Origin: Protaetiibacter sp. SSC-01
Lineage (GTDB): Bacteria > Actinomycetota > Actinomycetes > Actinomycetales > Microbacteriaceae
Assembly (NCBI RefSeq): GCF_014483895.1
Contig: NZ_CP059987.1
Coordinates: 930,001 to 994,000 of the forward strand
Length of the DNA stretch: 64,000 nucleotides
Direction of reading: 5' to 3'
Within the stretch, counting starts at the first letter, position 1, and each line of letters begins with the position of its first letter. The notes beneath the pieces are model-generated. The model searched no databases, had not been told where the DNA came from, and saw only the letters and a program-made list of their open reading frames with translations. Both the position numbers and the translations under genes were made by a program. Of the stretch, positions 7,569 to 17,405 are shown in pieces.

Positions 7569-10500
7569 GCCGACCGCGCCCACGCCCGGCCCCGCCGCAT
7601 CCGCGTCGCCCGTCACCGCCGCCCGCATCGCGGAGGCGCTCGCCGCCGTGCGCTCCGAACGCGGCGACGACGGCACCGTGCGCTACCCGACGCCCGAGCA
7701 GACGGCCGTCATCGAGGCCGACCCGCACGAGCCCGCGCTCGTCGTCGCGGGCGCCGGCTCGGGCAAGACCGAGACGATGGCGAACCGCGTGCTGTGGCTC
7801 GTCGCGAACGGCCACGTGCAGCCCGCCGAGGTGCTCGGCCTCACCTTCACCCGCAAGGCGGCCGGCGAGCTGGCCGAACGCATCCGGGAGCGGCTCGCCG
7901 AGCTGCACGAGGCAGGGCTCACGCCCGTGGGGCACGACCTCTTCGACGCCCCCGAGATCTCGACCTACAACTCGTTCGCGAGCGCCGTCTTCCGCGACAA
8001 CGCGCTCGTGCTCGGCCGCGACGGCGACGGCGTCGTGCTCGGAGAGGCGGCCGCGTGGCAGCTCGCGCGCTCGGTCGTGATCCGCAGCACCGACCCGCGG
8101 CTCGCATCCCTCGACAAGCGTCTCGACGCGGTCGTCGAGGCCACCATCAGGATCGCCGCGGGGCTCGCCGACAACGCCGCCGACCCCGAGCGCGTGCGCG
8201 AGCTCGGCCGCCGCTTCGCCGCGATGCGCGAGCTGCCGCTCGGCGACCGCTACGAGCGCCTCGACATGCTCGAGAAGATCGACGACCTCGCCCAGCTCGA
8301 CCTGCTCGTCGACCTCGCGGCCGAGTACGACGCCGCGAAGCGCGCCCGCGGCGCCGTCGACTACGCCGACCAGGTGGTGCTCGCGCTGCGCGCTGTCGAG
8401 AAGCGCGCCGAGGCGGGGGAGGAGCTGCGCGCGCGGTTCCGCGTCGTGCTGCTCGACGAGTACCAGGACACCTCGGTCGTGCAGACCGAGCTGCTCGCGC
8501 GCATCTTCGCCGGCACGCCGGTCACGGCGGTCGGCGACCCCAACCAGTCGATCTACGGATGGCGCGGCGCGAGCGCCTCAAACCTCGGCGAGTTCCGTGA
8601 GCGGTTCCGCGCGAGCGACGGCGGGCCCGCGCCCGACTTCACGCTCGCGACGAGCTGGCGCAACGGCGAGCGCATCCTCGACGCCGCCAACGCGCTCGTG
8701 GCGGGCGGCGAGACGCCCATCCCGGTGCCGACCCTCACGGCTCGGCCCGGTGCGAGCGCCTTCACGGTCGACAGCGCGTTCCCCGAGACGGTCGGCGACG
8801 AGGCTGCGCACGTCGCCGCGTGGCTGCGCGACCGCCTCGCCGACGTCGAGGCCGGCCGGGGCAAGCCCGGCACGGCTGCCCTTCTCCTGCGCGCCCGCAA
8901 GACGCAGCAGCATTTCCTCGACGCGATGCGCGAGGCGGGCGTGAAGTACCACGTGCTCGGCGTCGGCGGCCTGCTCGCCGAGCCCGAGATCGCCGACCTC
9001 GTGAGCGCCCTGCGCGTCATCGACAGTCCGGATGCCGGGCTCGAGCTGCTGCGCCTGCTCGCCGGGGCGCGCTGGCGCATCGGCGTCGCCGACCTCGACC
9101 GCCTGCGGGAGGTGTCGGGCTGGCTCGCGCGGCACGACGCGGCGGAGAGCGGCATCCTCTCCGACGAGGTGCAGCAGCGGATGCGCGACTCGGTCGCCGA
9201 CGGCGAGGGCGGCTCGATCGTCGACGCGCTCGAGTTCGTGGGGCGCGCACCCGAGACCCATCGGGCGCTCGAGGGCTTCAGTGCCGAGGGGCTCGTCCGA
9301 CTGCGCGACGCGGCGTCGCTCTTCGGCCGACTGCGCGCCCGCGCGGGACTCGAGCTGCCGGAGCTCATCGTGCTCGTCGCGCACGAGCTGCGGCTCGACC
9401 TCGAGATCGCCGCCAACGAGACGCGCACGGCGGGGGAGGCGAACCTCGACGCCCTGCTCGATGCGCTCTCGGGCTACCTCGCGATCGCCGAGACGGCGAC
9501 GCTCAGCGGCTTCCTCGCGTGGCTCAAGGAGGCAGAGCAGCGGGAGGACCTCACGCCGCGCCCCGAGGACCCGGAGCCCGGCACCGTCCAGGTGCTGACG
9601 GTGCACGGCTCGAAGGGCCTCGAATGGGACGTCGTCGCCGTGCCGCGGTTCGTCGAGGACGAGCTTCCCGCGCGCCCCCTCGAGGGCTACGGCGGCTGGC
9701 TCGGATTCGGACGCTTCCCGTGGCCGGAGCGCGGCGACGCCGACCACCTGCCCGTCTTCGAGCTCTCGCGCATCGACTCGCGCAAGGTGTTCGCCGACGA
9801 GGTCAAGCGATTCCGCGAGCGGGTCGTCGACCACTACCGCGCCGAGGAGCGCCGGCTCGCCTATGTGGCGGTCACGCGCGCCCGCGATCACCTGCTGCTC
9901 ACGGGTTCGTTCTGGGGCGGCCAGACGCGGCCGCGCACCGCGAGCCGCTTCCTGCGCGAGCTCGCCGACGCGGGAGTCGTGGCGCCGCTGCCCGACGCAT
10001 CCGCGACCGACGCTCCGCCGCCCGGTGCCGAGCCGGAGGTCACGCGCTGGCCGCACGACCCCTTCGGATCCCGCGCCGCCGCCGTGCGCACCGCAGCTGC
10101 CGCCGTCCGGAGCGCGAGCCCCGCGCTCGTCGGCCCCTGGGCGCGCGAGCTCGAGCTGCTGCTCGAGGAGCGCGAGCGCCGCCGCTCCCGCGAGGGCGTC
10201 GTGCCGCTCCCGGTGCGCATCCCGGCATCCGCGTTCAAGGACTACGTGACCGACCCGGATGCCGTCGCCGCCGAACTGCGTCGGCCCATGCCCGAGCGCC
10301 CCTACCGGGCCACGCGCCTCGGCACGCTCTTCCACTCGTGGGTCGAGGAGCGCTACGGGCGCCTCGGTGGCTCGGACGAGCTCGACGCCGCCCCCTTCGA
10401 GCTCGACGGCGACGGCGAGGTCGTCGACGCCGAGAAGCTCGCCGAGCTGCAGGCCACCTTCGAGCGCTCCGAGTGGGCGCAGCTGCGGCCCGTCGAGGTC

Positions 10501-10827
10501 GAGCGCGAGATCCACCTGCCGTTCGACGGGCGCGTCGTCATCTGCAAGATCGATGCCGTCTACCGCCGCGGCGACCGCTTCGAGGTCGTCGACTGGAAGA
10601 CGGGCAAGGCGCCGCGCGACGATGCGGACCTCGAGCGCAAGCAGTTGCAGCTCGCCCTCTACCGGCTGGCCTATGCCCGCTGGGAGGGCATCGACCCGGG
10701 TCTCATCGACGCCGCCTTCTACTTCGTGCACGACGACCGCGTCATCCGTCCCGAGCACATCGACACGGAGGAGGAGTTGCTCGTGCGCTGGCGGGCGGCC
10801 TTCGGCGCGCCCGCGGGGGAGCGTTAG
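7561..10827 (+). CDS. adnB: AdnB-like helicase-nuclease subunit
   Basis: 1088 residues from GTG 7561, inside the end of adnA, so translational coupling is likely. The UvrD-type motor is intact: Walker A GAGSGKT (64-70), DEYQDTS (299-305), VGDPNQSIYGWRG, the VHGSKGLEWD motif and the VAVTRARDHL motif. The C-terminal nuclease has EVVDWKTG with D1011 and K1013, almost the positions reported for mycobacterial AdnB (D1014, K1016). With AdnA it should form a dual-motor, dual-nuclease heterodimer for end resection. Its TAG stop overlaps the stop of the convergent lysR gene. Confidence 0.9.
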   Translation: MTEPTAPTPGPAASASPVTAARIAEALAAVRSERGDDGTVRYPTPEQTAVIEADPHEPALVVAGAGSGKTETMANRVLWLVANGHVQPAEVLGLTFTRKAAGELAERIRERLAELHEAGLTPVGHDLFDAPEISTYNSFASAVFRDNALVLGRDGDGVVLGEAAAWQLARSVVIRSTDPRLASLDKRLDAVVEATIRIAAGLADNAADPERVRELGRRFAAMRELPLGDRYERLDMLEKIDDLAQLDLLVDLAAEYDAAKRARGAVDYADQVVLALRAVEKRAEAGEELRARFRVVLLDEYQDTSVVQTELLARIFAGTPVTAVGDPNQSIYGWRGASASNLGEFRERFRASDGGPAPDFTLATSWRNGERILDAANALVAGGETPIPVPTLTARPGASAFTVDSAFPETVGDEAAHVAAWLRDRLADVEAGRGKPGTAALLLRARKTQQHFLDAMREAGVKYHVLGVGGLLAEPEIADLVSALRVIDSPDAGLELLRLLAGARWRIGVADLDRLREVSGWLARHDAAESGILSDEVQQRMRDSVADGEGGSIVDALEFVGRAPETHRALEGFSAEGLVRLRDAASLFGRLRARAGLELPELIVLVAHELRLDLEIAANETRTAGEANLDALLDALSGYLAIAETATLSGFLAWLKEAEQREDLTPRPEDPEPGTVQVLTVHGSKGLEWDVVAVPRFVEDELPARPLEGYGGWLGFGRFPWPERGDADHLPVFELSRIDSRKVFADEVKRFRERVVDHYRAEERRLAYVAVTRARDHLLLTGSFWGGQTRPRTASRFLRELADAGVVAPLPDASATDAPPPGAEPEVTRWPHDPFGSRAAAVRTAAAAVRSASPALVGPWARELELLLEERERRRSREGVVPLPVRIPASAFKDYVTDPDAVAAELRRPMPERPYRATRLGTLFHSWVEERYGRLGGSDELDAAPFELDGDGEVVDAEKLAELQATFERSEWAQLRPVEVEREIHLPFDGRVVICKIDAVYRRGDRFEVVDWKTGKAPRDDADLERKQLQLALYRLAYARWEGIDPGLIDAAFYFVHDDRVIRPEHIDTEEELLVRWRAAFGAPAGER

Positions 10828-11666
10828 CGCGCGGTCGCGTGGATGGCGTTGGCGAGCGCCTCGGCGGGCTCGCGGGCCGAGCGCGGGTTGGCGAGCAGCG
10901 TGAAGTCGACCTCGCCCATCCGCGGGAGCTCGAAGACGCCTGTCACCTCGGTGAGGTCGTCGGGGATGAGCACACGCGGGAAGACGCCGATGCCGATGCC
11001 CGCGCGCAGGGCCGCGAGGGCGCCGTTGACCTCGCGCACGTTGCACGTGATGCGCCACGTGCGGCCCGCCTCCTCGAGGGCGCGGATGGCGGTGTCGCGT
11101 GAGTAGCTCGGCGCCTGGTAGACGATGAGCGGCACCGTCGCGTCGGGGTCGAGCCGCAGCGAGCGGTGCGCGACCCACACGAGCCGCTCGCGGCGCACCG
11201 TGCGCCCCTCGTCGTGGCCGGGGTCCTGCTTGACGTAGACGAGGTCGAGCTGGCCGGCGGCGAGGCGGCGCGTGAGCTGACCGCTCTGGCCGACCGTGAG
11301 CTCGAGGTTGATCTGCGGATAGAGCTGGCGGAAGTCTCGCAGCACCTGCGGCAGGTGGGTGAGCGCGAGGTCGTCGGCCGCGCCGAAGCGCAGGCGGCCG
11401 CGCATCGCGGAGCCCACGAAGTAGGCGGCGGCCTCGTCGTGGGCGGCGAGGATCGTACGCGCGAAGCCGAGCATCGCGTCGCCGTTGTCGGTGAGGTGCA
11501 CGGCACGGGTGTCGCGCGCGACGAGGATGCGGCCGGCGGCGTTCTCGAGGCGCCGCACCTGCTGGCTGACGGTCGGCTGGCTGATGCCGAGCAGCTCGGC
11601 GGCGCGTGTGAAGCTCGCCGTGTCGGCGACGGCGACGAAGGTGCGCAGGAGAGCGGGGTCGAACAT
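10824..11666 (-). CDS. LysR-family transcriptional regulator
   Basis: 280 residues. The N-terminal winged helix is typical (LLRTFVAVADTASFTRAAELLGISQPTVSQQVRRLE) and is followed by a two-lobed effector domain starting near residue 88. It is divergent from the MFS exporter at 11748, with a LysR-type box between them, so it probably controls itself and the transporter. The effector is unknown. Its stop codon overlaps that of adnB by 4 bases, leaving no room for a separate terminator. Confidence 0.93.
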   Translation of the reverse strand: MFDPALLRTFVAVADTASFTRAAELLGISQPTVSQQVRRLENAAGRILVARDTRAVHLTDNGDAMLGFARTILAAHDEAAAYFVGSAMRGRLRFGAADDLALTHLPQVLRDFRQLYPQINLELTVGQSGQLTRRLAAGQLDLVYVKQDPGHDEGRTVRRERLVWVAHRSLRLDPDATVPLIVYQAPSYSRDTAIRALEEAGRTWRITCNVREVNGALAALRAGIGIGVFPRVLIPDDLTEVTGVFELPRMGEVDFTLLANPRSAREPAEALANAIHATAR

Positions 11667-11676
11667 CCGAGCCTCT

Positions 11677-11691
11677 ATTCGTATATCGAAT
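11677..11691. promoter_or_regulatory. Candidate LysR operator (T-N11-A)
   Basis: The sequence attcgtatatcgaat has arms ATTCG/CGAAT around five bases and fits the LysR T-N11-A rule. It is unusually AT-rich for this genome and sits 11 bases upstream of the lysR start and 57 upstream of the MFS start. Binding is inferred. Confidence 0.65.
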
Positions 11692-11747
11692 GGGAGTTAT
11701 AGCGACCATAGCTCGACGCAATGTCACGGGCTATCTAGCCTTGAATC

Positions 11748-13103
11748 GTGTCATCCGCGCCGCCGCCTCCCGAGCCCGACGCGATCCCGTACCCGGTGAC
11801 CGAGCCCATCCCCGTCTTCGACCGCCGCCCGAGCTTCCGCGAGAGCTTCGCCGCCCTCGCCGCCTACAACTACCGGCTCTACCTCGGCGCCCTCATGCTC
11901 GGCAGCACCGGCGGATGGATGGCGCGCGTCGCGATCGACTGGCTCGTGCTCGAGCTCACGGGCGACGTCGCGCTCGTCGGCGTCGCCGTCGCCCTGCAGT
12001 TCGCCCCCAGCCTGCTGCTCGGCCCGTGGGCAGGGGTGCTCTCGGACCGCCTCCCGCGGCGCTTCGTCGTGCTCTCGATGCAGGCGATCGCGACCGTCGC
12101 CAACGGTGCGCTCGCCGTGCTCGTGCTGTTCGGTCACGTCGTCGTGTGGCAGGTCATGCTCATCGCCGCGATCGGCGGCATCGCGGGCGCCATCGAGGGA
12201 CCGAGCCGCTCCGCCTTCGTCTCCGAGATGGTCGGCACGGCCCGACTGCGCGGCGCCATCAGCCTCAACGCGACCACCTTCCACCTCGGGGGCCTCATCG
12301 GGCCCGCCCTGTCGGGCGTGCTCATCGCGGCGATCGGCTCCGGCTGGTCGATCGCCGTCAACGCCGGCACGACCGCGATCGCCGTGCTCGCGATCTCGCT
12401 CATGCGGGCGCACGAGCTCGTTCCGACGCCCAAGCAGCCGCGATCGCGTGGTCAGATCCGCGAAGCCGTGCAGTACGCGTGGCGCAAGCCCGCCATCCGC
12501 TGGAGCCTCGTGCTGCTCGCCGCCGTCGCCACCTTCGGCATGAACCTGCCCGTGCTGCTCGCGGCCGCCGCCGACGGAACCTACGGCACGGGGTCGACCG
12601 GGTACGGGCTCTACAACTCCCTATGCGCGGGTGGTGCGTTGATCGGCGCGATCCTGTCGTCGCGGCGTAGGACGCTGCGGCTGCGCGACGTCGTCGGCTT
12701 CACCGCGCTCTACGGCGCCGTGACGATGCTCGCCGGCTGGGACGGCTGGCACCCCGTGTTCCTGTCGGCGCTCGTCGGCATCGGCGTCTCGCGGCTGCTC
12801 TTCGCGATGAGCGCGGAGGCCCTCACGCAGCTCTCCACCAACCCCGCCATCCGGGGACGCATCGTGTCGTTCTACATGATGGTCGCGATGGGCGGGCAGG
12901 CGGCCGGTGGCGTCGTCATGGGCTGGATCGCGGAGACCCTCGGCGGTCGCATCGCATTCCTCGCCGCGGGCGCCGTGCCGCTTGTCACGGCGCTCGTCGT
13001 GGGCGCCGTGCTCGCGCACCGTCACCAACTGCGCATCCGCGTCGACCTGCGTCGTCGCGCCCAGTTCTTCACGATCGTGCCGCGCGACTCCACCGTCGGC
13101 TGA
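11748..13103 (+). CDS. MFS transporter (EntS/MFS_3-like exporter)
   Basis: 451 residues from GTG 11748. After a Pro-rich N-terminus of about 45 residues there are about 12 hydrophobic segments with a loop motif GVLSDRLPRRF between helices 2 and 3, the MFS signature. The overall pattern resembles the MFS_3 group, whose members include enterobactin exporter EntS and macrolide efflux-like proteins. Location is the cytoplasmic membrane. The substrate cannot be read from sequence. The divergent LysR gene probably regulates it. Confidence 0.9.
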   Translation: MSSAPPPPEPDAIPYPVTEPIPVFDRRPSFRESFAALAAYNYRLYLGALMLGSTGGWMARVAIDWLVLELTGDVALVGVAVALQFAPSLLLGPWAGVLSDRLPRRFVVLSMQAIATVANGALAVLVLFGHVVVWQVMLIAAIGGIAGAIEGPSRSAFVSEMVGTARLRGAISLNATTFHLGGLIGPALSGVLIAAIGSGWSIAVNAGTTAIAVLAISLMRAHELVPTPKQPRSRGQIREAVQYAWRKPAIRWSLVLLAAVATFGMNLPVLLAAAADGTYGTGSTGYGLYNSLCAGGALIGAILSSRRRTLRLRDVVGFTALYGAVTMLAGWDGWHPVFLSALVGIGVSRLLFAMSAEALTQLSTNPAIRGRIVSFYMMVAMGGQAAGGVVMGWIAETLGGRIAFLAAGAVPLVTALVVGAVLAHRHQLRIRVDLRRRAQFFTIVPRDSTVG

Positions 13104-13133
13104 GTCGGTCCTCCGAGCCTCGAGGCGCTTCGC

Positions 13134-13234
13134 GAGGGCGCCGGAGGGTTTCCGAGCCGCATGCCCCCGCACGCCTGGACGGCGTGCTCCCGCCAGTCCC
13201 GATGCCAGCGTCTTGGAAACCCTCCGGCGCCCTC
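13134..13234 (+). repeat. Core-and-arm inverted repeat element, copy 1
   Basis: A perfect 20-bp inverted repeat (13134-13153 and 13215-13234, beginning gagggcgccggagggtttcc) encloses a 57-bp core (13156-13212, beginning gccgcatgccc and ending gatgccagcgtc). The core contains its own hairpin, gcacgcc-tggac-ggcgtgc. An exact inverted copy of the core lies at 13517-13573 with different arms. This starts the 523-bp gene-free stretch between the convergent MFS and phosphotransferase genes. Confidence 0.85.
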
Positions 13235-13273
13235 ACTCCGCTCGTGCGCGGTGCGCGCTGCTCGCCACCACCG

Positions 13274-13441
13274 TTGGTTGAGTGCGGCGCGCCGTGCCGG
13301 AGGCGCTGCGCACCGCGTATCGAAACCCCCGCACCGAGTGGTGCGTGCGGACGGGTGTCATCCTGGCCCGTCCTTGATGCGTCGTGCGAGGGTTTCGATA
13401 CGCGTGCGGTCGCTGCGCGGCCGCGCGCTACTCAACCAGCA
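13274..13441. repeat. Inverted pair of the GGTTTCGATACGCG...CTACTCAACCA repeat
   Basis: A reverse copy (13274-13326, ggttgagtgc...gcgtatcgaaacc) faces a forward copy (13391-13441, ggtttcgatacgcg...ctactcaaccagc) about 64 bases apart. The same two ends recur at 27731-27832. The internal parts are GC-rich and variable. Lying between the two core-and-arm elements, they make the whole gap roughly mirror symmetric. Confidence 0.8.
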
Positions 13442-13492
13442 GGGGGCGGCGGAGCGGCGCGCACAGGTCGCACGGGGCAGGACAGGAGCGCA

Positions 13493-13597
13493 GCGAGGGT
13501 GCGGACCGGTTTGCGCGACGCTGGCATCGGGACTGGCGGGAGCACGCCGTCCAGGCGTGCGGGGGCATGCGGCGCGCAAACCGGTCCGCACCCTCGC
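13493..13597 (-). repeat. Core-and-arm inverted repeat element, copy 2 (inverted)
   Basis: The arms 13493-13516 and 13574-13597 are perfect 24-bp reverse complements (beginning gcgagggtgcggaccggttt). They enclose 13517-13573, the exact reverse complement of the 57-bp core of copy 1. The arms differ from those of copy 1 at about six positions, each compensated in the opposite arm. The copy ends 29 bases before the stop codon of the phosphotransferase. Confidence 0.85.
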
Positions 13598-13626
13598 GAA
13601 GCGGCGGGGCAAGACCGCGGGAAGCC

Positions 13627-14619
13627 CTAGGAGACCCGCTCCGCGCGGTCGAGCAGCGCCTCCACCTCGTCGACCGCCAGCACCGGCAGGGTGGGCGGGG
13701 AGATGGACTCGGAGGCGTCGGTGGTGACGTCGTCGACGAGGCGCGACATCATCCGCACCGCGTCGTCGACGATCTCGGTGCTGCGCTGCTCGGTGCCGTG
13801 AAGGAGCCAGCGGGCGACCTCGAGCTCGGAGAGCAGGGTGGCGCGCTGGCGGATGCGGCGGTCGACGGTGCCGCGGATGCGGGTGTACGCGTCGAAGATC
13901 GCGTCGGCGACGCCGTCGCGGCGGATGCCGACGGCCCAGCACAGGTCCTGCGCGGGGTCGGCGACCCGGAGGTTGTGCCAGCCGAGCACACCCGTGACGT
14001 CTCCCGAGGAGGCGAGGAACGAGGCGGCGCCCAGGTCGCCATTGACGACGGCGGGGGTGAACTGCCAGAGGCCGGCGTCTTCGCCCGCCTGCTCCCAGCG
14101 GGCGAGCAGCGCGGCGGGCACGAGACTCGTGGCGGCTGCGCGGTCGATGAGGGCGATGGCGGCGCGGTGGGAGTCGACGGAGCCGTAGGCGGGGAGGCCA
14201 GCGTCGGTGACGAGGCTCGTGGGGAGCGCGTGGATGGCGGCGATCGCCTCGCCGATCGAGGTCGCGAGGGCGTTGTCGATGCCCGCGGAGGTGACGGGGG
14301 TGCCGTAGACGAACTCGGAGACGATGGCGCGCGTGCCGTCGACGGGGGTCTGCCCGGCGAACGCGGTGACGGCGAACGGCAGTCGGGCCCGCACGCCGGG
14401 GCTGAGCGCGCGCAGGGCGACGAGGTCGGCGGACTGCTGCTGCTCGGCGCGCTCGGAGCGGGGCACGCGCACGATCCAGTGACGTCCGTCGCGTCCGGTG
14501 ATGACGGCCGCGTCGAAGTCTCCACGCCCCGCGGAGCCGAACGGCGCCGCACCCACGACGTCGAGCTCCGCGACGGCCGAGGTGGCGAGCGCCGCTAGAG
14601 TGAGGTGGGATCTGGCCAT
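13627..14619 (-). CDS. Phosphotransferase-fold protein with a degenerate active site (macrolide phosphotransferase-like)
   Basis: 330 residues from ATG 14619. The APH/choline-kinase fold is recognisable: an N-lobe with RHWIVRVPRSERA, a helical C-lobe, the segment VVNGDLGAASFL and then VADPAQDLCW. In active family members the catalytic loop reads HGDLxxxN and is followed by an I-D-W metal site. Here the His is Asn (NGDL), the metal-binding Asn is Ser and the I-D-W site reads LGW. Only the catalytic Asp remains. It may be a pseudo-kinase or have an altered activity. It is divergent from nudC, with about 100 bases between. Confidence 0.75.
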   Translation of the reverse strand: MARSHLTLAALATSAVAELDVVGAAPFGSAGRGDFDAAVITGRDGRHWIVRVPRSERAEQQQSADLVALRALSPGVRARLPFAVTAFAGQTPVDGTRAIVSEFVYGTPVTSAGIDNALATSIGEAIAAIHALPTSLVTDAGLPAYGSVDSHRAAIALIDRAAATSLVPAALLARWEQAGEDAGLWQFTPAVVNGDLGAASFLASSGDVTGVLGWHNLRVADPAQDLCWAVGIRRDGVADAIFDAYTRIRGTVDRRIRQRATLLSELEVARWLLHGTEQRSTEIVDDAVRMMSRLVDDVTTDASESISPPTLPVLAVDEVEALLDRAERVS

Positions 14620-14721
14620 GGCGACAGGGTAGGTCTGCCCCGCCCCGGCCGCCCGGCACGCCACGCCCGTCGTGCGGTTCTCGCAGGCGATCCGAGGCCC
14701 GCGGTGTGCGCCAGGGATGGG

Positions 14722-15708
14722 ATGCGGATGAGCGGTTCGACGCACGGGTCGATGAGCGGTTCGGCGCGGCCCCCGAGGCGCCCTGCGCTCGCGCCGGCGC
14801 TCTCGCGTTCCGAACTCGATCGCGACTACCTGTCGCGGCTCGGCGGCGTACCCGCACTCCTCGAGGACCCGTCGACGCGCATGGTCGTGCTGCACGAGGG
14901 CCGCGCCCTCGGCACGCACGAGGGTGCCCTCGCGCTCGTCGACCCGTCGACGCTCGCCGTGGACCCGGATGCCGCGGTCTTCCTCGGGAGGGCGCGTGCC
15001 GCATCCGCCGATCTCGAGCAGGGCGCCGCCGTGCTCGCTCTCGTCGTGTCGGAGGAGGACGCGGTGCGGCTCGGCGAGGAGGGCTCGTGGCTCGACCTGC
15101 GCCGCGTCGGCTCGCTGCTGACGCCGCGCGACGCGGGACTCTTCACGCAGGCGCTCGCGCTCGCGAACTGGCACGGCTCGGCGGCGTTCTCGTCGGCGAC
15201 GGGGGAGGCGACGAGCGTCGCGCAGGCCGGCTGGGTGCGGGTCGACCCGTCGACGGGGCGGGAGAGCTATCCGCGCACCGACCCCGCGGTGATCGTGGCG
15301 GTGCTCGACGACGACGACCGCATCCTGCTCGGCTCGAACGTGGAGTGGGACGACCGGCGGTTCTCGCTGCTCGCGGGTTTCGTCGAGCCGGGGGAGTCGC
15401 TCGAGGCGGCCGTGATCCGGGAGATCTTCGAGGAGGCGGGCGTCGTCGTCGACGACCCGGAGTACCGGGGCAGCCAGCCGTGGCCGTTCCCCGCATCGCT
15501 CATGGTCGGCTTCGAGGCGCGCGTGGCGTCGGGCACGTCGACCGTGCCGCGGCCGGACGGCACGGAGCTGCGCGAGCTGCGCTGGTTCTCGCGCGAGGAG
15601 CTCGCGGCGGATGTCGCGGCGGGTCGCGTGCTGCTGCCGGGCGCCGCGTCGATCGCCCGGGCGATCGTGGAGGACTGGTTCGGCGGGCCCATCGAGGAGC
15701 CGCGGTGA
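14722..15708 (+). CDS. nudC: NudC-like Nudix hydrolase (NAD(H) diphosphatase family) without zinc cysteines
   Basis: About 328 residues. ATGs at 14722 and 14728 are both plausible, with AGGG at 14713 favouring the first. The Nudix box is complete (GFVEPGESLEAAVIREIFEE, then AGV) and is followed by the NADH-diphosphatase signature SQPWPFPAS. The zinc ribbon expected before YPRTDPAVI has no cysteine at all: the segment reads FSSATGEATSVAQAGWVRVD. Known members cleave NAD(H) or remove NAD caps from RNA. The stop overlaps the start of uvrD2 (GTGA), so the two are probably cotranscribed. Confidence 0.88.
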   Translation: MRMSGSTHGSMSGSARPPRRPALAPALSRSELDRDYLSRLGGVPALLEDPSTRMVVLHEGRALGTHEGALALVDPSTLAVDPDAAVFLGRARAASADLEQGAAVLALVVSEEDAVRLGEEGSWLDLRRVGSLLTPRDAGLFTQALALANWHGSAAFSSATGEATSVAQAGWVRVDPSTGRESYPRTDPAVIVAVLDDDDRILLGSNVEWDDRRFSLLAGFVEPGESLEAAVIREIFEEAGVVVDDPEYRGSQPWPFPASLMVGFEARVASGTSTVPRPDGTELRELRWFSREELAADVAAGRVLLPGAASIARAIVEDWFGGPIEEPR

Positions 15709-17405
15709 CCGACATCCTCGACGCGCTCGACGAGCAGCAGCGCCAGGCGGCGGAGGCGCTGCTGGGGCCGGTGTGCATCCTCGCGGGCGCCGGCACGGGT
15801 AAGACCCGCACGCTCACGCACCGCATCGCGCACGGCGTGGCATCCGGGGTCTACACGCCCGACCGCGTCATGGCGCTCACCTTCACGACCCGCGCGGCGG
15901 GCGAGCTGCGCTCGCGTCTGCGCGCGCTCGGGGCCGGTCGGGTGGCGGCGCGCACCTTCCACTCGGCGGCGCTCGCCCAGTTGAGCTTCTTCTGGCCGCA
16001 GCTCGTCGGCGGGCGGCTGCCCGAGATCCTGCCCGGCAAGGGGCGCCTGCTCGGGCAGGCGGCGGAGTCGCTGCGGATGCGTGTCGACACGGCCGTGCTG
16101 CGCGACCTCGCGGCCGAGATCGAGTGGCGCAAGGTGCGCCGCATCCCGCTCGACGACTACGCGCGGCTGAGCTCGCGCCCCCTGCCGCCGGGCCTCGACA
16201 TGCACGCCGTCGTCGAACTGCAGCAGCGCTACGAGGACCTCAAAGACGAGCAGCGCCGCCTCGACTTCGAGGACGTGCTGCTCGTGACGGCGGGGATGCT
16301 CGAGGCCGAGCAGCGCGTGGCCGATCAGGTGCGCCAGCAGTACCGCTTCTTCGTCGTCGACGAGTACCAGGACGTCTCGCCGCTTCAGCAGGAGCTGCTT
16401 GAGCTTTGGCTCGGGCCGCGCACCGACGTGTGCGTCGTGGGTGACGCATCGCAGACGATCTACTCGTTCGCGGGCGCCTCGAGCGAGTACCTGCTCGGCT
16501 TCGCGAGCCGGTATCCGGATGCGACCGAGGTGCGCCTCGAGCGCAACCACCGCTCGACGCCCGCCATCCTGGGTGCCGCCAACCGGCTCATGCGCGGGCG
16601 TCCGGGTGCTCTCGAGCTCGTCGCGGTCGACGGCGACCTCGCCTCTCCCGAGCCGACCGTCACACGCTGGGACTCGGATGCCGCGGAGACGAACGGCGTC
16701 GCCGACGCGGTCGCGGCGCAGCTCGCGGCCGGGGTCGCACCCGAGCGCATCGCCGTGCTGTACCGCGTCAACGCGCAGGCGGTCGCGCTCGCGACGGCGC
16801 TCGCGGAACGCGGCATCAGCTCGCGCCAGGTCGGCGGAACGAAGTTCTTCGAGATCGAGGCGATCAAGCGCGCCGTGCTCGAGCTCACGAGCCTGTCGCG
16901 CACGGGCTCGCCGAAGGGCCTCTACGAGACGGTCGCGGATGTCGCCCTCGCGAACGGCTGGTCGGCGCACGCCCCCGACAGCCAGGGTGCCGTGCGGGAG
17001 CGCTGGGAGGCGCTCGGCGCGCTCGTCGAGCTCGCCGACCAGGCGCCGGAGGGTATGACGCTCGCCCAGTTCGTGGCCGAGCTGCAGGAGCGCCAGAGCA
17101 TGCAGCACGAGCCGACCATGCCATCCGTCGTGCTCTCGACGCTGCACGGCGCGAAGGGCCTCGAGTGGGACCACGTGCACATCGTGGGCCTCACCGAGGG
17201 CCTGCTGCCGATCTCGCACGCGAAGGGCTTCGCCGCGATCGACGAGGAGCGCCGCCTGCTCTACGTGGGCATCACGCGTGCGCGGCGGACGCTCGCGTTG
17301 CACTGGTCGGCGGAGGGGCTGCGCTCGCGTCCGCGGGAGCCCAGTCGCTTCCTGGCGGAGCTGCGCAGCGGCACTCCGGGTGCGGCGCGATCGCGCGCTC
17401 GCTGA
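15705..17405 (+). CDS. uvrD2: UvrD2-like superfamily 1 DNA helicase, short form
   Basis: 566 residues from GTG 15705, overlapping nudC. Motor motifs are complete: GAGTGKTRT near residue 27, TFTTRAAGELRSRL, DEYQDVS, VGDASQTIYSFAGA, LHGAKGLEWD and VGITRARRTL. Mycobacterial UvrD2 continues with an HRDC domain and a cysteine cluster, giving about 700 residues. This protein stops about 40 residues after the last motor motif and has neither. Linkage to nudC supports the UvrD2 assignment. The 3' end overlaps the cyclodehydratase-like gene on the other strand by 134 bases. Confidence 0.85.
   Translation: MTDILDALDEQQRQAAEALLGPVCILAGAGTGKTRTLTHRIAHGVASGVYTPDRVMALTFTTRAAGELRSRLRALGAGRVAARTFHSAALAQLSFFWPQLVGGRLPEILPGKGRLLGQAAESLRMRVDTAVLRDLAAEIEWRKVRRIPLDDYARLSSRPLPPGLDMHAVVELQQRYEDLKDEQRRLDFEDVLLVTAGMLEAEQRVADQVRQQYRFFVVDEYQDVSPLQQELLELWLGPRTDVCVVGDASQTIYSFAGASSEYLLGFASRYPDATEVRLERNHRSTPAILGAANRLMRGRPGALELVAVDGDLASPEPTVTRWDSDAAETNGVADAVAAQLAAGVAPERIAVLYRVNAQAVALATALAERGISSRQVGGTKFFEIEAIKRAVLELTSLSRTGSPKGLYETVADVALANGWSAHAPDSQGAVRERWEALGALVELADQAPEGMTLAQFVAELQERQSMQHEPTMPSVVLSTLHGAKGLEWDHVHIVGLTEGLLPISHAKGFAAIDEERRLLYVGITRARRTLALHWSAEGLRSRPREPSRFLAELRSGTPGAARSRAR

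Follow-up and report, generated by a model that had tools for sequence, protein, structure and literature searches.

REP elements, as outlined in sections of PMC8266576, PMC6006769 and PMC3116915, are short intergenic palindromes that frequently occur as inverted doublets and carry compensatory changes within their hairpins; the same sections describe a strand-specific recognition of the folded single-stranded DNA, a foot tag of the GTAG type and an enzyme of the Y1 class. An excerpt of PMC6006769 gives 66 families of REP-type repeats, found mostly in Proteobacteria. The attC sites of integrons are hairpins of variable sequence whose folded bottom strand is the one recognised (from a portion of PMC2727003). 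We examined a hairpin that occurs twice, in inverted orientation, within a 64,000-nucleotide stretch of the Protaetiibacter sp. SSC-01 genome (NZ_CP059987.1, positions 930,001 to 994,000; hereafter the window). The family to which it belongs takes its place with the known dispersed palindromic repeats, as a new form. An earlier description was not found in the literature searched, pieces of the core sequence having been included, and the family is undescribed as far as searched. Throughout, strand A denotes the orientation of the first window copy and strand B its complement.

The element shares with the REP/BIME/REPIN sequences and their RAYT (TnpAREP) a dispersed, intergenic palindrome present singly or as inverted doublets (13 here), and compensated stems; recognition of a single folded strand may be shared as well, the indirect sign of it here being the asymmetry of wobble pairs and loops. 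It differs from them in that the internal core is conserved and the stem variable, in having three to four times the length of the 29–37-nt E. coli REPs (their size as given in part of PMC8266576), and in mostly lacking a GTAG, GTGG or CGTC foot tag; between 8 nt outside and 2 nt inside the stem foot of 116 copies, these tags occurred 0/3, 6/0 and 4/2 times, respectively, on strands A/B. The genus also differs in being without a Y1 transposase: PF01797 was matched in 0 of 9 genus genomes and in 5 of 14 control genomes, and the single match among 21 other host genomes contained an internal stop. The Y2 transposase model PF04986 was matched in 0 of the 9 genus genomes, and the control genomes were likewise without a match. 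Like attC sites, the element has a variable hairpin sequence and one strand favoured for folding; unlike them, its centre is conserved rather than the end boxes (an alignment of 36 fragments with their flanks, inspected by eye, had no conserved AAC/GTT columns), and the integron integrase model TIGR02249 was matched above its cut-off in none of the 9 genus genomes, weaker tyrosine-recombinase-like matches being present in 9/9 of these and 14/14 controls. As far as can be told, the element would work like a REP; it is not classed as one.

The inverted hairpin pair and its anatomy

The first copy has its core at 13156–13212 (+; covariance model match 13137–13231, +), with an inner hairpin and a 3' bulge that is C-rich (G-rich on strand B), enclosed by perfect 20-bp arms at 13134–13153 (left) and 13215–13234 (right), both on the plus strand. 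The core of the second copy, at 13517–13573 (−; model match 13498–13592, −), is identical to it and is enclosed by perfect 24-bp arms, which in core orientation are the right arm at 13493–13516 (−) and the left arm at 13574–13597 (−). When checked on the sequence, the account in the earlier note was borne out for the exact reverse complementarity of the two 57-bp cores (a match that is not extendable), for the perfection of both arm pairs, for an inner 7-bp hairpin (GCACGCC/GGCGTGC), and for a setting between convergent genes, namely an MFS transporter gene, which ends at 13103, and a gene for an APH-family phosphotransferase with its stop at 13627. The arms of the two copies, read in core orientation over 20 bases, differ at 7 positions on the left and 8 on the right, slightly more than the "about six" previously claimed.

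At the stem ends lie short feet, assigned from the sequence and from foot counts in 74 genus copies. The left foot of copy 1 is at 13127–13133 (−; GCTTCGC on the plus strand, GCGAAGC on strand B), and the feet of copy 2, each overlapping its arm by two bases, are at 13488–13494 (GCGCAGC) and 13596–13602 (GCGAAGC), both given for strand B, which here is the plus strand. We take GCGAAGC to be the extraordinarily stable DNA mini-hairpin with a GNA triloop. The window hairpins are not a chance occurrence, since there are 10 such hairpins in their own genome and 74 in the genus.

Across the family, the outer stem has 24–39 pairs (median 29; 24 model columns plus the outward extension), and its feet often read GCTNCGC on strand A (the right foot in 37 and the left foot in 31 of the 74 genus copies). 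Inwards from the stem, strand A carries a short internal loop, CCCC and an inner hairpin of variable length, with the bulge UCCCGCCNGNCCCGAUGCC on the 3' side; distant members have kept CCCG..hairpin..CCCGCCAGNCCCGA..GCC. Covariation was assessed with 34 copies (36 of 37 fragments were aligned, and L015p and L030m were then left out), where 93.8% of the cells were paired, double changes were present in 25 of 33 pairs, and 217 cells had changed on both sides compared to 57.6 in shuffles; none of 500 shuffles reached the observed value on any of five measures. With 100 copies, in an alignment fitted to the model, 94.4% of cells were paired and double changes were present in 31 of 33 pairs; covariation was above that of the shuffles on four of the five measures, and further pair types were matched by 107 of 500 shuffles. 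Core positions 31 (C/T) and 75 (A/G) are coupled, with C/A in 72 copies, T/G in 12 and 2 exceptions (86 of 116 copies scored). The co-varying arms of the window pair had been taken as the mark of a selected structure, and since the arms of further copies co-vary as well, the hairpin structure is real, and either selected or actively maintained.

Distribution, setting and spread of the family

The earlier note had proposed a search with the core followed by a covariance model, and these recovered further copies with co-varying arms in relatives. By sequence search the hairpin was found at 9 places (10 rows) in its own genome; covariance model R1 found 10 places there and 74 full-length copies over 9 of 9 genus genomes (80 rows, from which 5 antisense matches to copies already counted and 1 contig-end fragment were removed; an interrupted copy in genome G001 is not among them). 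With model R2, the element was present in 29 of 398 Microbacteriaceae genomes, representing 11 of 85 genera, and in 3 of 394 genomes drawn from the class, all of them Microbacteriaceae, with 0 outside the family; in these family-wide and class-wide searches the filters were stricter and 10 candidates were scored for each genome, so that their counts are lower bounds. The hairpin element is a patchy, low-copy, dispersed family of Microbacteriaceae. Plasmid and phage records gave no match to it, and six viral contigs that share an 18-letter piece of the core gave no match to the covariance model.

The genes around the copies were called with our own codon-usage caller, which is unvalidated and for at least one gene set the start codon too far upstream (judged against 13627–14619). 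Called genes contained 0 of 90 copies (74 from the genus and 16 of 18 others), and 1 copy overlapped a gene call among 26 further copies, i.e., the model matches outside the window less antisense matches and a contig-end piece, some of which are near-identical or orthologous. The 90 copies comprised 58 between convergent genes, 19 between tandem genes with the gene direction, 8 between tandem genes against it, 4 between divergent genes, and 1 of unknown setting. In the genus, 46 of 67 spacers with an element were convergent, compared with 8 of 141 (≥60 nt), 30 of 317 (any length) and 6 of 77 (≥130 nt) element-free spacers from the same stretches. The nearer stop codon lay on the A side in 52 of the 58 convergent cases (median 17.5 versus 156.5 nt, p 3e-10) and, for the genus only, in 46 of 52 (16 versus 138.5 nt); this orientation rule was absent from the 26 copies of other genera (9 were +A>+, 9 were -A>- and 3 were +A>-; the orientation of 4 was undetermined, and 1 overlapped a gene call). 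The same genes were followed by copies in several species. When two copies lay a few hundred bases apart, 13 of 15 pairs, from 8 or 9 loci, were arranged A> <A, including some between tandem genes (L193, L218); the 2 direct pairs were both from Microbacterium resistens. The hairpin is kept through paired changes, concentrated between convergent genes in the genus, and recurrent in inverted doublets that share one arrangement. The neighbours of the 74 genus copies, 135 genes in all, are ordinary: their proteins (long ones trimmed to 330 residues for the scan) matched 149 Pfam families, and the 25 commonest of these included no transposase and had no common theme. Of 35 PHROGs families matched, the 25 listed were largely metabolic or unnamed.

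Two minor observations were made at these loci. Microbacterium resistens has direct tandem copies of the element at L163 (4429–4710) and L189 (5063–5349), repeating every 190 bases or so with the spacer counted in, and the phosphotransferase gene at G001:C1:160358-161346 matches as overlapping pieces (residues 1–77 and 70–330), as if frame-shifted.

Seven copies from different loci of genome G001 paired up at 91–96% identity over 128–144 bp, their matches mostly ending 13–23 bases before and 15–26 bases after the model, while a few weaker matches reached past the feet, up to +75. The window's locus had two copies in genomes G000 and G004, two in G001 (one interrupted, by eye), one in G005, and no copy in G006, G003, G002, G008 and G007, where spacers were 0–44 nt. 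A unit that lies at unrelated loci of one genome, and that some genomes have and others lack at the window's locus, is one that has spread: the element has multiplied within genomes, and related species differ in whether a given gene pair carries it. The spacers at the window's locus are too diverged to define the element ends, and neither a clean empty site nor a target duplication was defined. These differences in presence among related species at the same gene ends offer a natural experiment on whether repeats of this kind influence the 3' ends of convergent genes. At L154 of G001, the copy on the MFS side has an extra hairpin-bearing stretch in the 3' bulge of the core, with its arms still paired (by eye).

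Core likeness was higher within a genome than between genomes (0.769 versus 0.652), and orthologous cores (0.686) were not significantly different from other between-genome pairs (p 0.26). Orthologous arms were slightly more alike (0.59 versus 0.522, p 0.003), the highest value being that of the two most closely related species. To this extent some inheritance in place is real; beyond it, either sites have been re-invaded or the arms turn over quickly with conversion of the core. The inner-hairpin variant CACGCC/GGCGTG was found only in the two window copies among 90 aligned, and the orthologous pair of G004 has two different cores. The identical window cores are a private variant that probably arose by recent conversion within the pair, and do not reflect a general invariance. 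The alternative that the earlier note had put against itself, an inverted duplication with gene conversion, is partly right, as regards the exact 57-bp identity.

The strand that folds

A strand whose folding is selected should tolerate G.T (or G.U) pairs as intermediates, and the other strand would then show A.C. On strand A, the arm mismatches of 90 copies included A.C 33 times and G.T 5 times, and those of the 26 further copies 14 and 4 times; over columns 4–18 of all 116 copies there were 45 A.C versus 9 G.T. The bias held when orthologous sites were pooled (33 A.C versus 4 G.T groups, p 1e-6) and in tandem contexts (10:2). The other strand-A mismatches in the 90 copies were C.C 15, C.T 8, A.G 5, G.G 4, A.A 1 and T.T 1. 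Two simpler origins of the bias were considered and set aside. Arm composition alone (left arm G/T-rich, right arm C/A-rich) predicts an A.C:G.T ratio of about 1.3:1, versus the 33:5 observed; plain deamination of C on strand B is less likely, as changes of both G>A and T>C seem to be present between related copies (by eye). Counting A.C against G.T in the arms of a palindrome is a simple test, needing only sequence, of which strand is constrained to fold.

The loops and feet were also asymmetric. Inner loops read T...C on strand A (G...A on strand B) in 73 of 90 copies, comprising 33 GNA triloops, 23 four-nt and 17 five-nt loops, and on strand B the four-nt loops were G-N-C-A in 21 of 23 cases and GNRA in 2. 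The ratio of TNC to GNA feet on strand A was 37:0 on the right and 35:9 on the left, with 17:43 at a downstream control position (74 genus copies). With DNA parameters the strand B fold was the more stable one in 113 of 116 copies, and with RNA parameters in 107 of 116, a difference that rests partly on the shared core of copies that are not independent. A contrary sign came from the inner-hairpin pair 36-57, which is T.G on strand A (A.C on strand B) in 47 of 100 copies. Taken together, the data support a folding constraint mainly on strand B, which in the genus is antisense to the nearest gene. We infer that strand B acts as single-stranded DNA rather than as RNA, since the bias is seen where no gene faces the element (the tandem contexts), there is neither a T tract nor an Rfam match, GNA triloops account for 33 of the loops, and 21 of the 23 four-nt loops are not GNRA; the hairpin may nevertheless have a role in strand-B RNA or in 3'-UTR RNA. 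Among the options originally offered for the window pair, a DNA hairpin for a mobile-element protein fits best, whereas a structured RNA is less supported on the gene-sense strand, by both wobble tolerance and loop types. A structured RNA of strand A (sense) was not our first choice, A.C exceeding G.T there, with the T.G of the inner hairpin speaking for it.

Explanations for the element, and a neighbouring repeat

We put at about even chances the explanation that this is a REP/REPIN-like, non-autonomous palindromic element of about 128–144 bp, which acts as folded strand-B DNA and is moved by some enzyme. Strand B would fold as single-stranded DNA; a putative enzyme would recognise the folded core and the feet and copy or move the element (compare REP/RAYT, IS200/IS605 and attC/IntI); and copies would persist mainly at gene 3' ends, where harm is presumably least. 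The arms would drift stepwise by way of wobble pairs on strand B, and the cores within a genome would be homogenised by spread and conversion. At one orthologous position C-G, C.A and T-A were seen in three related species (by eye), which is consistent with stepwise change. We hold only tentatively, and would sooner bet against, the narrower proposal of a hitherto undescribed mobile element of Actinobacteria that acts as single-stranded DNA, has a conserved core with a G-rich bulge and feet that form G(N)A mini-hairpins, and is recognised on one strand by an enzyme of a kind other than the Y1 (RAYT) transposases and the integron integrases. If this were true, strand-asymmetric hairpins in Actinobacteria without a Y1 enzyme would point to a different machinery for the movement or upkeep of folded single-stranded DNA.

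The position just behind stop codons fits a role in transcripts too, and so counts against the mobile-DNA reading. The same holds for the lack of a Y1 transposase in the genus, for the copy pairs whose likeness runs past the feet, for the T.G pair at 36-57 and for the partial inheritance of arms in place. A cis-acting RNA could serve as a bidirectional terminator, as an antisense barrier at convergent ends (strand B RNA) or as a strand-A stabiliser of 3'-UTRs, and would account for the excess of convergent spacers among those with an element, the nearness of the A-side stop, the copies that follow the same genes in several species, and the greater stability of strand B with RNA parameters. The element also resembles terminator hairpins in lying close behind stop codons in the genus and in being very stable on both strands. 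It differs from them in its conserved core, its within-genome amplification, a strand preference opposite to the transcript of the nearest gene, and the lack of a T tract; over the 40 nt that follow the stem, T runs reached at most 3 on strand A and 4 on strand B (115 copies each), and no terminator-like site was found in window positions 12900–13800. The RNA explanation is further opposed by the strand bias of tandem contexts and of the 26 copies from other genera, where the orientation rule is absent, by the scarcity of GNRA among the four-nt loops, and by the absence of any match at E≤1 to Rfam covariance models over window positions 10000–17000; we regard it as possible but doubtful. The idea of a mobile core inserting into terminators already in place was rejected, as the arms have a family consensus and spread with the core.

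Two further explanations are both improbable. An inert palindrome, its arms kept complementary by template switching or by hairpin-directed mismatch repair and having neither recognition nor function, would suit the small number of arm mismatches. Such repair could be carried out by actinobacterial NucS, which has G.T, G.G and T.T as substrates, and these were rare on strand A (5, 4 and 1) relative to A.C (33), C.C (15) and A.A (1); such a palindrome leaves unexplained the core conserved over 11 of 85 genera, the coupled positions 31/75 and the feet, and the C-G, C.A, T-A series would fit a stepwise change. With about as little probability, the element could be a MITE of a DDE transposase, being short, intergenic, dispersed, palindromic and patchy, but a single copy consists of one asymmetric core with no pair of matching terminal repeats, and the commonest Pfam families of the neighbouring genes were without a transposase.

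Another dispersed repeat, by far the more abundant of the two, occupies 13276–13327 (−) and 13391–13437 (+), between the hairpins of the window. It has the form of GGTTTCGATACG, a variable hairpin and ACTCAACC. The 15 copies of this repeat in the fetched stretches gave no clear result for the loop rule or the mismatch asymmetry. The literature match to its 13-base start was a paper that, by its title, concerns tuberculosis serodiagnosis. The pattern was found at 136 places in its own genome versus 0 for the reversed pattern, and a relative of this repeat (TTGAGCGAGGAGCGCAGCGACGAGACGAAACG) adjoins the hairpin element in Microbacterium resistens.
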